Shown here in pieces: positions 30,522-35,198 of a DNA stretch of 40,138 nucleotides (the first letter of the stretch is position 1; each line of letters opens with the position of its first letter). The stretch is from contig QHSP01000069.1 in NCBI GenBank assembly GCA_003220495.1, forward strand, positions 1-40,138, written 5' to 3'. Source of the DNA: Candidatus Rokuibacteriota bacterium (GTDB lineage Bacteria > Methylomirabilota > Methylomirabilia > Rokubacteriales > CSP1-6). Position numbers and translations under genes: made by a program. The notes under the pieces were generated by a model. The model saw only the letters and a list, made by a program, of their open reading frames with translations, had not been told where the DNA came from and did no database searches.

Positions 30522-31096
30522 ATGGCCACGGTGCCGGGAGGCGCCGGGCCTGAGAAGATCACCTTCCCGGCAAACTACAAGGATCACGTTCTCTACGCGA
30601 CGTCAAAGGCGACCTTGCCGGGTTCACGGTGATGGAGAAACGGACGGGCTGGGGCACGGGGTACCAGGACGACACCCGAAACGGCGAGTGGGAATACTCG
30701 GCCTTCACCGCGGACCAGAAGTTCAACGACAAGGCGAACTAGAAGGCGTGCTTCCAGTGCCACAAGCCGCACGCCAGGCAGGATTTCGTGATCTCGCTGG
30801 CCAGGCTCTCGGGTCAGGCGCCGGATGGGCCCGTCACGATGAAGACGAGCCCCACTGACGTCGGCATCGCCGGGTTCGCGTTCGGACCGACCAAGCTGAC
30901 GATCGCACCCGGCCAATACGTGACGTGGACCAACGCCGACGATTCGCCGCACCAGATCACGCTCGCGCAGAGCCAGGAGCGCTCCGCCGTGCTCCTCAAA
31001 GGTCAGAGCCACACGCAGGCCTTTGCGACGGCCGGCGTCTACGAATACACCTGTGGGCTCCACCCGAACATGAAGGGCTCCGTCGAGGTGAAGTAG
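30522..31096 (+). pseudogene. Decayed cytochrome P460 fused to an intact cupredoxin domain
   Basis: From the ATG at 30522 the first frame gives PEKITFPANYKDHVLYAT and stops. In another frame comes DLAGFTVMEKRTGWG and GEWEYSAFTADQKFNDKAN. A TAG at 30740-30742 follows, then KACFQCHKPH with a CxxCH heme site (30749-30763). Order and motifs match the cytochrome P460 family, but the middle of the domain is deleted, the frame shifts and a stop interrupts it. The same frame runs on into a cupredoxin domain (PTDVGIAGFAFGPTKLTI to the end), with copper ligands in SPHQ and CGLHPNMKG. There is no signal peptide. The cupredoxin could start at GTG 30788 or ATG 30839 but would then stay in the cytoplasm. 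Confidence 0.7.
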
Positions 31097-31263: not shown

Positions 31264-31650
31264 ATGCTGACGGTCCTGATCGCCGACGACGAGCCGCACG
31301 TGATCGACCTCATCCGCCTGACGCTCGAGGACGAGCGCATATCCGTGATCGACGCCTTCGACGGCGAGACCGCCATCGCCCACGCCGAGGCGATGCGCCC
31401 GGAGCTGATCTTCCTCGACGTTCACTTGCCGGACATCAGCGGGCTCGAGGTCTGCGCGCGGCTTCGGAGCGATCCACGCTTCGCCGCGACGAAGATCGTG
31501 ATGCTGACCGCCGCGGCGCAGGAATCCGACGTCGCGCGCGGCCTCGCCGCCGGCGCCAATCACTACCTGACCAAGCCGTTCTCGCCGGTGCGCTTGCTCT
31601 CACTCGTCGAGAGCGTGGTGCCACACGCCGCCCTATGGCACCGCGAGTGA
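31264..31650 (+). CDS. Single-domain response regulator
   Basis: This 128-residue receiver domain has no output domain. Conserved residues are the acidic pair in IADDEPHVIDL (D8/D9), the phospho-acceptor Asp52 in LIFLDVHLPDISGLEV, Thr82 in IVMLTAAAQ and Lys104 in HYLTKPFSPVRLL. The start is the ATG at 31264; the upstream open frame is not protein-like. It is the first gene of a tight four-gene cassette with an HD-GYP enzyme, a membrane protein and a histidine kinase. It probably receives phosphate from that kinase and acts on the HD-GYP protein by contact. Confidence 0.9.
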   Translation: MLTVLIADDEPHVIDLIRLTLEDERISVIDAFDGETAIAHAEAMRPELIFLDVHLPDISGLEVCARLRSDPRFAATKIVMLTAAAQESDVARGLAAGANHYLTKPFSPVRLLSLVESVVPHAALWHRE

Positions 31651-32369
31651 ACGCCGCTCCCGGCGACGACCTCACCGTGGCCTATCGCCGGCTCAACGCC
31701 GCGTACCAGCAGACCTTGCGCTACGCCGAGGACGTGCGGCGCCTCTATCAGCAAGTCCAGCGCGCCATCTATCAGTCGCTGCTCGGTCTGGCCAACGCGC
31801 TGGAGGCCAAGGACGCATACACGCGGGGCCACTCCGAACGGGTCGGCGCGTGGAGTCGCGGCGTGGCGGCGGCGCTCGGGCTGCCGGCGGGTGAGGTCGA
31901 CATGATCGGCCAGGCGGGCCTGCTCCACGACCTCGGCAAGATCGGCATTCCCGAGGCCGTGCTCAGAAAGCCCGGCGCGCTCGACCCGGAGGAGTGGACG
32001 GTGATGCGCAATCATCCGCTGATCGGCGCGCAGATCGTCGCGCCGTTCGACTTCTTCACGGGTGGCGCGTTGATGATCCGTCACCATCACGAGCGGTGGG
32101 ACGGCTCGGGCTACCCGGATGGGCTGACCGGGGACGAGATTCCACTCGGGGCGCGCGTGATCGCCGTCGCGGACGTCTACGACGCGCTGACGTCGAACCG
32201 ACCGTATCGCGCGGCGCTGTCCCACGCGGCGGCGCTCGAGCACCTCACGTCGGCGGCGGGGCTGACCCTCGACGAAGACGCGGTCTCCGTCTTCCTCGGA
32301 TTGATCGAAACACGCTCGACCGCGAAGCCCGATGTGGGCGCTCGATCAGCCTTACGCCCCGCGGGCTGA
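31635..32369 (+). CDS. HD-GYP domain phosphodiesterase
   Basis: This 244-residue protein starts at ATG 31635; a GTG at 31647 overlapping the previous stop (GTGA) is also possible. An N-terminal helical stretch (YRRLNAAYQQTLRYAEDVRR) leads to the HD-GYP domain: GHSERVGAWSRGVA, LLHDLGKIGIPE with the HD pair, and HHERWDGSGYPDGLTGDEIP with the GYP loop. This family hydrolyses cyclic-di-GMP (or related dinucleotides) in a metal-dependent way. It has no receiver of its own, so the adjacent free receiver (31264-31650) probably controls it. It overlaps both neighbours. Confidence 0.92.
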   Translation: MAPRVNAAPGDDLTVAYRRLNAAYQQTLRYAEDVRRLYQQVQRAIYQSLLGLANALEAKDAYTRGHSERVGAWSRGVAAALGLPAGEVDMIGQAGLLHDLGKIGIPEAVLRKPGALDPEEWTVMRNHPLIGAQIVAPFDFFTGGALMIRHHHERWDGSGYPDGLTGDEIPLGARVIAVADVYDALTSNRPYRAALSHAAALEHLTSAAGLTLDEDAVSVFLGLIETRSTAKPDVGARSALRPAG

Positions 32370-33138
32370 CCACCTCCTCGCCGATACGCCGCTGGCGCTG
32401 CTCGCCGCGCTGGCGGTCGGCGCCGGGACGGCCGCGGTCCTGGTCGAGCTCGCGGTTCTGCCCCCGCACGTGTCGCGCGTCGCCGGCGTGACGGCGGCCC
32501 ATGGGGCGCTGCTCGCCACCGCGCTGGCCTGGGCGCGAGTCAGCGCGGCCTCGCCAGTCATCGCGGTGGCGCTCATCGGTCTGGCCGCCGCCGTGTCCCA
32601 GCTCGGTGTGCTCGGCTCGCTCGCGTATCTCGGGCCCGCGCTCTGGGTCGGTTTCTTGTCGGCGCGTGGCCGGCTTACCAGCCTCGGCCTCGGCACTCCG
32701 GTATCGCTCGGGCGGGTGGCGGCGGGCGTTCTGGTGGGGACCGGGCTCTCGGGCCACTTGCTCGTCTCGGCCTCCCGGACGCTTGGCGTTCACATCCGCG
32801 TCGACCACGCGGCCGAGGCGCTCGCCGCGATCGCCTACGACGTCGGCGCCAACGTGCTCGCCGGCGAGTGCTTCTTTCGCGGCGCGTTGTTCAATCGAGC
32901 CGAGCGACGATGGTCGTTCGCCGCCGCGTCGACCGTCGCGACGAGCGCATACCTGCTCCGCTATCTGGTCGATCCGCTCCTGCCCAAGAGCGTCGAGCTG
33001 ATGATCGGCGCGGTCTTCTATCTGGCGCTCCTCGGCGCGATGAACTGCTGGCTCCTCTCGTCGTCCGGGAGCCTCGTCCCCGGGCTCGTGAGCGCGTCGA
33101 TCTTCTTCGCGGCGTACCGGACACTCGGAGTCCGATGA
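32332..33138 (+). CDS. CPBP/Abi-like polytopic membrane protein, active site degenerate
   Basis: This 268-residue protein has about seven to eight hydrophobic segments (for example LLAALAVGAGTAAVLVELAV, IAVALIGLAAAVSQLGVLGS, IGAVFYLALLGAMNCWLL). Near residue 178 it has GECFFRGALFNR, resembling CPBP-family motif 1 (EExxxR) but with Cys in place of the second Glu; only E179 and R183 remain. The second and third motifs, which need His, are not evident: the equivalent helices read YLLRYLVD and LVSASIFFAAYR. It is thus probably a non-proteolytic scaffold or sensor. It overlaps the HD-GYP gene by 38 bases and the kinase by four (ATGA). Confidence 0.65.
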   Translation: MWALDQPYAPRADHLLADTPLALLAALAVGAGTAAVLVELAVLPPHVSRVAGVTAAHGALLATALAWARVSAASPVIAVALIGLAAAVSQLGVLGSLAYLGPALWVGFLSARGRLTSLGLGTPVSLGRVAAGVLVGTGLSGHLLVSASRTLGVHIRVDHAAEALAAIAYDVGANVLAGECFFRGALFNRAERRWSFAAASTVATSAYLLRYLVDPLLPKSVELMIGAVFYLALLGAMNCWLLSSSGSLVPGLVSASIFFAAYRTLGVR

Positions 33139-34634
33139 GGCTCGTCGCGGCGGCCCTCGTGGCGGTGACGGCGCTGATCGCGCTCGAAGACAGCGGCCCA
33201 GCGTCACTCCTCCGTCACGCGTATCTGGTGCCCGTCCTCGCAGCCGCGCTGCGGTTCGGTGTGGTTGGCGGCGGGCTCGCCTCCGCCGCCGCGATGCTGT
33301 TGAGCGCGCCGGTCGTTCTGCCGGAGATCGAGCGCTCGGGTCTCACCACCGAAGCGATCGAGGGGCTGGTGACCTTCGCGGTCCTGGGTCTGGTGGGCGT
33401 GCTGAGCGGCGTGCTGCGAGGTCGCCTCGGCCGGCATCGCCGCCGGTACGAGATCCTCGTGACGATCCAGCGAACGTTGGCCGACGAGGCGCCGCTCGAC
33501 CTGTCACTGGCTCGGCTGCGCGCGGCGCTGGCGGATCGTCTGCGCGTGGACGAGATCGCCCTGGTCGCCTGCGACGGTGAGCGGCTCGCGGTCGCCGGCG
33601 GAGCACGGGTGGCCGATCGCTCGCTCGTCGCGCGCGTGCTCGCCACCGGCGAGCCGGTGTTCGTCAGCGATGCAGGCGCCCGCGGCCGCGCGCGCCGTGC
33701 GTTCGCCACGCCGCTGATGTCGCGCGGGCGGGCGGTGGGCGTGCTGGCCGTCGAGCGAACGGGAGAGATCTCGGTCGGCGAGCGTGTCGCCCTGGAGGCG
33801 GTCGGCGCTCACGTGGGCGTCGCGCTCGAGAATGCACGGCTCGTGTCCTGCCAGCGACGGTTCGCCGCGGAGCTGGAGGAACGGGTCACGGCGGCGCGGC
33901 GCGAGCTCGAAGAGCTCGATCGGGCGAAGTCGGCGTTCGTCGCGATTGCGTCGCACGAGCTCCGGACGCCGTTGACGGCGCTACAGGGCTTCAGCGAGAT
34001 CCTGGCGCTCCGGCGGCTGCCACCGGAAGAGGTGACGCGGCTCGCCGAGGTCATGCGCCGGGAGGCGAGGCGGCTCGGGCGGATCGTCAGCGACCTGCTG
34101 GATCTTTCGCGGATCGAGCGCGGGCTCGAGCCGGCGCTCTGCCGCGTTCCGCTCGAGATCGAGCCGACCATCGAAGCGACGGTCGATCTCTTCCGCCAGG
34201 GGACGGCGACCCACCTGATCACGACCGAGTGCGAGCCGTCGCTGCCGCTCGTCGCCGCCGACCCCGACGCGCTGGAGCGCGTCTTGACCAACCTGATCTC
34301 GAACGCGATCAAGTACTCGCCGACCGGCAGCTCGGTGCGCGTGGGTGCGCGCGCGCTCGCCGGCGCGGTGGCGATCGAGGTCGCCGATGCCGGGCGCGGC
34401 ATTCCGACCGAGGCGTTGCAGCGCGTCTTCGAGCCCTACTATCGGGTGCCCGATGCCGCGGGCGTGGCGCACGGCACCGGCATCGGCCTGGCCGTCGTGA
34501 AGGCGCTCGTCGAGGCTCACGGCGGAACGGTGCGCGTCGACAGCACGCCGACGATCGGCACGCGCGTGACGGTCGTTCTCCCCGCGCCGAGCGGTCCGTT
34601 CCTTGACACTCCGCGTCGCTCGCGTGTAGGCTGA
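33135..34634 (+). CDS. Membrane sensor histidine kinase with GAF-like domain
   Basis: This 499-residue protein has three membrane segments at about 1-95 (AALVAVTALIALE, HAYLVPVLAAALRFGVVGGG, TFAVLGLVGVLSGVLRG), resembling a DUF4118-type module. A GAF-like domain follows (about 110-255), then a coiled coil and the dimerisation/phospho-acceptor helix with His274 in ASHELRTPLTAL. The ATP-binding domain shows N box LTNLISNAIKYSP, G1 DAGRGIP and G2 GTGIGLAVVKALVEAHGG. The ATG overlaps the stop of the CPBP-like gene. The partner is very likely the response regulator at 31264. Confidence 0.93.
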   Translation: MRLVAAALVAVTALIALEDSGPASLLRHAYLVPVLAAALRFGVVGGGLASAAAMLLSAPVVLPEIERSGLTTEAIEGLVTFAVLGLVGVLSGVLRGRLGRHRRRYEILVTIQRTLADEAPLDLSLARLRAALADRLRVDEIALVACDGERLAVAGGARVADRSLVARVLATGEPVFVSDAGARGRARRAFATPLMSRGRAVGVLAVERTGEISVGERVALEAVGAHVGVALENARLVSCQRRFAAELEERVTAARRELEELDRAKSAFVAIASHELRTPLTALQGFSEILALRRLPPEEVTRLAEVMRREARRLGRIVSDLLDLSRIERGLEPALCRVPLEIEPTIEATVDLFRQGTATHLITTECEPSLPLVAADPDALERVLTNLISNAIKYSPTGSSVRVGARALAGAVAIEVADAGRGIPTEALQRVFEPYYRVPDAAGVAHGTGIGLAVVKALVEAHGGTVRVDSTPTIGTRVTVVLPAPSGPFLDTPRRSRVG

Positions 34635-34641
34635 CCAGGTT

Positions 34642-34920
34642 ATGCCTCGCCACGCAGCGGTTGCCGATCGCATGGCGAGCGCGGTGGTCAAGCGACTGAC
34701 GGTGCGGAAGGTCGCGGATATCAAGGACGAGAACACCGCGCGCGCCGCCATCCGCCACGTCGTACTCGAGAACCTGGCCGCCGAAGAGCAGCTCGACGCC
34801 GAAGCCCGCAAGCTCCTGCTGGACCACGCCAAGATGATCAAGGACTCCGCCGCCGACTACCGCCAGCTGCTCGGCAAGGTCAGGGAAAAGCTCGCGCGCG
34901 AGCGGGGGTTCATCCTCTGA
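34642..34920 (+). CDS. DUF507 family protein (first of a tandem pair)
   Basis: This 92-residue, mostly helical and highly charged protein contains LTVRKVADIKDENTARAAIR and ends KVREKLARERGFIL, matching the DUF507 family pattern. No catalytic motif is visible. The ATG at 34642 is used; an internal ATG at 34672 (MASAVVKRLTVRKV) is also possible. It overlaps the second DUF507 gene by one base. The family is uncharacterised and, in my recollection, found in Aquificae, delta-type proteobacteria and Rokubacteria/NC10. Confidence 0.8.
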   Translation: MPRHAAVADRMASAVVKRLTVRKVADIKDENTARAAIRHVVLENLAAEEQLDAEARKLLLDHAKMIKDSAADYRQLLGKVREKLARERGFIL

Positions 34921-35198
34921 TGATGCGGATGAGCCGCGAGCGCCTGTTCCACCTCGCCGATCTCATCTTGAAGGAGCTCGGCACGACGCAGGGCGTGAGC
35001 TTCAAGGCGCCCGACGAAGTCCGGACCGAGGTCATCCGCGCGCTCACCGAGGAAGCCAAGCTCGCCGAATCGATCGACGGCGAGGTCCGCAAGATCCTCG
35101 GATCCTACTCGCGTCCGATGCCGGAGGGCAGCCGCGAGTGGGAGGTGCTGTACGAGAAGACGCGCGAGGAAGTGTTCCGCAAGAGGTTCCGCCTCTGA
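34920..35198 (+). CDS. DUF507 family protein (second of a tandem pair)
   Basis: This 92-residue helical protein starts at the ATG at 34920; an ATG at 34929 (MSRERLFHLADLILKEL) is an alternative. DUF507 features are VRTEVIRALTEEAKLAESID and the C-terminal YEKTREEVFRKRFRL. It is the same length as the preceding gene but clearly diverged, so the pair may form a heterodimer. That is an inference. Its TGA overlaps the CTG that appears to start ubiX. Confidence 0.82.
   Translation: MMRMSRERLFHLADLILKELGTTQGVSFKAPDEVRTEVIRALTEEAKLAESIDGEVRKILGSYSRPMPEGSREWEVLYEKTREEVFRKRFRL

Follow-up and report, generated by a model that had tools for sequence, protein, structure and literature searches.

What links a detached response regulator receiver, an HD-GYP protein, a degenerate CPBP-type membrane protein and a histidine kinase in one run of overlapping genes? 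The run occupies positions 31264-34634 of the window, by which we mean the whole 40,138-nucleotide stretch of Candidatus Rokuibacteriota DNA analyzed here. Its four open reading frames, all on the forward strand, lie end to start as the original prediction described, each overlapping the next. They encode a stand-alone receiver (REC, or RR) of 128 aa (31264..31650; Pfam Response_reg, E 1.7e-28), a receiver-less HD-GYP protein of 244 aa (31635..32369; Pfam HD_5, E 4.2e-37), a degenerate CPBP/Abi (Rce1-like) polytopic membrane protein of 268 aa (32332..33138; assigned from PF02517, a motif tally, an AlphaFold model and structural alignment) and a histidine kinase (HK) of 499 aa (33135..34634; assigned from Pfam GAF, HisKA and HATPase_c matches, a model and hydropathy).

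The overlaps measure 16 nt between the receiver and HD-GYP genes, 38 nt between the HD-GYP and CPBP genes and 4 nt between the CPBP and kinase genes, and they are compatible with translational coupling. With start codons chosen by a script, the 16 nt and 4 nt overlaps recur in most related loci, and short gaps are found elsewhere. Because overlaps are common but not universal among the relatives, the fixed stoichiometry that had been read into them is not established. The four genes do form a conserved unit, as proposed, but the unit is not bounded at four genes. A DUF507 gene starts 7 nt past the end of the kinase gene, and in relatives the run continues as DUF507-DUF507-ubiX-glycosyltransferase (GT)-oxidoreductase. 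A promoter scan found no promoter, and terminator-like sites were found inside coding sequence.

Two neighboring features can be noted here. A small cupredoxin gene of the plastocyanin/azurin family (30788-31093) lies between atpC and the cassette and is detected in some relatives only. Downstream, two adjacent DUF507 genes (34642-35198) match the first and the second half, respectively, of the 182-position Pfam DUF507 profile. In almost all relatives this pair comes after the cassette; in sister families it comes after atpC.

Three of the four proteins retain the residues expected of active signaling components. In the receiver, D8, D9, the phospho-acceptor D52 (codon 31417-31419), T82 and K104 are invariant in 48 orthologues. 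The HD-GYP protein has a helical, linker-like N-terminus and carries its HD and GYP motifs at 31926-31931 and 32109-32117. Its residues H66, H98-D99, K102, H127, H151-H152, D183 and G159-Y160-P161 are likewise invariant in 48 orthologues, and the HD dyad, metal-ligand histidines and HHExxDGxGYP signature of HD-GYP phosphodiesterases are all present. It is a probable c-di-GMP-degrading enzyme. With six GGDEF and six PilZ matches in the genome as well, c-di-GMP signaling in this organism is plausible. The kinase has three to four transmembrane (TM) helices with short intervening loops and no extracytoplasmic domain, followed by GAF, HisKA and HATPase_c domains, as judged from hydropathy and the model; this is the architecture of an intramembrane-sensing histidine kinase. 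AlphaFold places helices at residues 2-17, 25-68 and 72-116, ahead of GAF/HisKA. The kinase residue H274 (codon 33954-33956) lies within an HExxT phosphotransfer motif and, together with E275, T278 and the N/G-box residues, is invariant in 44 orthologues. At the residue level, the HisKA histidine, HATPase boxes and receiver aspartate of a two-component system are thus in place.

RpfG-type proteins unite REC and HD-GYP in one polypeptide. At the cassette loci the two domains are separate open reading frames in every case, and no RR-HD-GYP fusion was found at any of them. Elsewhere in the phylum, several of the closest relatives of the HD-GYP protein have REC and HD-GYP fused in the same open reading frame, so the pair looks like a split RpfG layout, in line with what had been suggested from the window. 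The receiver ends in a short C-terminal tail with an invariant tryptophan, W125 (31636-31638), where the HD-GYP protein or the kinase might make contact.

The membrane protein departs furthest from its family. Its match to the Pfam Rce1-like profile is weak (E 1.1e-4; score 22.9 bits, cut-off 22.4). We nevertheless judge the match to be real, because 46 of 48 orthologues also match PF02517 (best E 3.6e-9) and because the predicted fold resembles those of Rce1 and SpdC. AlphaFold models the protein with confidence (mean pLDDT 91.9), and the model shows a CPBP fold. When it is aligned with VIA-align 2, the top match is Staphylococcus aureus SpdC (6u0o; Z 12.8 over 201 residues, 4.3 A, 11% sequence identity), followed by Rce1 (4cad; Z 12.6 over 206 residues, 3.8 A), although values near 13 fall in a range where helical bundles can be ambiguous. 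Both stand clearly apart from the next-best match (Z 9.1 over 75 residues). A plain Foldseek search of the model against the PDB gave no significant match, and the structural assignment therefore rests on the VIA-align re-alignment together with the Pfam result. Cytidine deaminases were the sole matches in a sequence-profile search of solved structures and, with E values of at least 0.008, were taken as chance.

Within this fold the protease residues are largely missing. The first glutamate of the EExxxR motif is present in none of the 48 orthologues. The position of the motif-2 (FxxxH) histidine is an arginine, R210, in all 48, and the motif-4 (HxxxN) histidine is in none of them. The original prediction that the Glu-Glu pair and histidines are absent holds for these three residues, but not for the second glutamate, E179 (32866-32868), which is kept in 47 of 48; the motif arginine, R183 (32878-32880), is kept in 46. 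A canonical CPBP protein elsewhere in the same genome has EEIFFR, FGVFH and HVVNN all intact. In the cassette protein a different set of residues, H142 (32755-32757), Y169, D170, G172, R210, D214, P215, Y230 and R263, is invariant in the 48 orthologues. Since catalytic glutamate and histidines are lost while this largely polar set does not vary, conservation marks the protein as a constrained pseudo-protease and not a decaying gene. If the protein were still a protease, using a non-canonical active site to cleave the kinase or another membrane protein, the retained fold, the near-invariant E179 and R183 and the invariant H142 would be accounted for, but this is very improbable given that the first glutamate and both histidines are gone from every orthologue.

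The reading we favor, to which we would give an even chance, is a vertically inherited, membrane-sensing c-di-GMP switch in which a kinase and an Abi-type partner drive a split RpfG-like output. Kinases that lack an outside sensor are described as receiving their signal within the membrane, sometimes by way of a partner protein (PMC8534201). The Abi-domain protein SpdC binds and modulates WalK and SaeS through TM helices (PMC5854430), and Abx1, another Abi-domain protein, binds CovS through TM helices and is active with its catalytic residues mutated (PMC3578759). On the strength of these precedents we propose the CPBP protein as a kinase modulator and the receiver as a switch acting in trans. 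The few TM helices of the kinase would pair with the pseudo-protease, which would serve as a non-catalytic sensor or modulator in the manner of SpdC and Abx1. The resulting balance of kinase and phosphatase activity would set phosphorylation of the stand-alone receiver. The receiver, in turn, would control the separate HD-GYP phosphodiesterase in trans, a role played in RpfG-type proteins by the fused receiver. The signal itself we infer to be membrane or energy state. Modulation of the SpdC/Abx1 type is plausible from genomic coupling, fold and co-loss (see below), and to that extent the idea of a CPBP kinase partner stands. The pairing is not as unexpected as first thought, however, since SpdC with WalK and SaeS (PMC5854430) and Abx1 with CovS (PMC3578759) precede it.

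Genomic coupling is seen across almost all of the window's family, which is uncultured. When the CPBP protein is searched in 95 genomes of the phylum, 57 of them from this family, orthologues are found in 50 of the 57, between atpC and DUF507/ubiX and with identities down to 34%. All 50 CPBP-positive genomes among the 95 belong to the family, and each has one full copy, apart from a gene split over two contigs in G044 and one extra weak, short match in G078. The orthologues occur only at the cassette locus, beside the kinase, and are not scattered without kinases. The neighborhood reads, nearly throughout, atpA-atpG-atpD-atpC-(cupredoxin)-RR-HDGYP-CPBP-HK-DUF507-DUF507-ubiX-GT-oxidoreductase, and the order of the four genes is kept at every assembled family site with a single exception, G067. 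Conservation of the order thus extends beyond near-identical strains. Several apparent breaks in genes probably reflect assembly indels (CPBP in G050, the kinase in G071 and G062, HD-GYP in G072; atpD is shifted in G062 as well). A 751 aa open frame in G050 that suggested a CPBP-kinase fusion was rejected, because the frames differ, which points to a frameshift or a misassembly close to the C-terminal end of CPBP. In two genomes of genus g13 (L067:9650-12136; L064), an insert of ~2.1-2.5 kb lies between the kinase gene and DUF507; the L067 insert contains an open reading frame that resembles an IS1-type transposase by eye.

Seven family genomes have no CPBP match, and in six of these the atpC-DUF507 junction is not assembled. 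The seventh, G067 (L091:1862-3078), is a natural deletion in which the HD-GYP gene is contiguous with atpC and DUF507, and receiver, CPBP and kinase are all missing. None of the reading frames across the 350-nt gap encodes a recognizable receiver. All four genes are present in G066, from the same genus. In two genomes from sister families (G092, G094), DUF507 follows atpC with none of the four cassette genes between. The simplest history would be a single gain in the family ancestor, vertical descent and one observed partial loss.

The joint loss in G067 supports receiver, CPBP and kinase as a unit. The same genome keeps an HD-GYP protein with an intact active site, and so this protein can persist without the receiver, which is the main caution on the HD-GYP step. 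Kinase, CPBP and receiver might form one unit whose target is not the neighboring HD-GYP protein (for example, a phosphorelay, motility or transcription partner), with HD-GYP co-expressed and independently controlled. We consider this unlikely: receiver and HD-GYP genes are adjacent, and usually overlap, in all other assembled loci, and in related HD-GYP proteins of the phylum the receiver is fused.

The CPBP protein could instead have its own role, either membrane- or isoprenoid-related or as an enzyme built on a re-wired polar site, and be merely co-transcribed with the two-component system in a long DUF507/ubiX/glycosyltransferase operon. Metabolic genes do continue the operon, and the polar set H142, D170, E179, R183, R210 and D214 could serve a different chemistry or ligand. 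Yet DUF507 occurs without CPBP both in G067, which has lost CPBP along with the kinase and receiver, and in the sister families, and the fold matches that of SpdC; a separate role appears improbable. Evolutionary rates add little to the case for kinase modulation by CPBP. CPBP shows its highest partial rate correlation (0.52-0.59) with the kinase, but control pairs, including one with DUF507b, reach the same level, and for this reason it is given little weight.

The fullest form of the favored reading is a pseudo-protease CPBP protein that serves a dedicated kinase as its membrane sensor, the kinase switching c-di-GMP breakdown on or off through a detached receiver, in an ATP-synthase-linked, family-wide arrangement not found described; this we offer tentatively, as a possibility with the balance somewhat against it. 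If true, Abi-domain pseudo-proteases would be seen to control kinases not only in Firmicutes but also in an uncultured phylum, and with a second-messenger output, which would point to the CPBP fold as a general source of kinase partners. Because synteny is strict across the family, a paired alignment suited to complex prediction and heterologous tests is already at hand.

A search of the open-access literature found no paper with the whole four-gene composition, in agreement with the original prediction. Each component is known, as is the pairing of an Abi protein with a kinase; no account of their combination with a split HD-GYP output, or of the family-wide synteny behind ATP synthase genes, was found in that literature. 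Among known systems, RpfC-RpfG and other REC-HD-GYP systems share kinase, receiver and HD-GYP output with the cassette. RpfC is a hybrid kinase and RpfG carries REC and HD-GYP in one polypeptide, whereas the cassette has a non-hybrid kinase and separate receiver and HD-GYP proteins. BceS-BceAB, LiaS-LiaF and SaeS-SaePQ also join a kinase that lacks an extracytoplasmic sensor to a membrane protein partner, but in the cassette the partner is a CPBP pseudo-protease and the regulator a stand-alone receiver. Abx1 of Streptococcus agalactiae is an Abi-domain protein that controls its kinase, CovS, independently of protease residues; unlike the cassette protein, it retains the catalytic motifs, and the regulator CovR is a transcription factor. 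SpdC (LyrA) of S. aureus is the closest in structure, as an Abi/CPBP-fold polytopic protein and the top structural alignment. It comes from the Firmicutes and contacts ten kinases, whereas the cassette protein shares its operon with a single kinase, and its gene neighbors that of a probable c-di-GMP enzyme.
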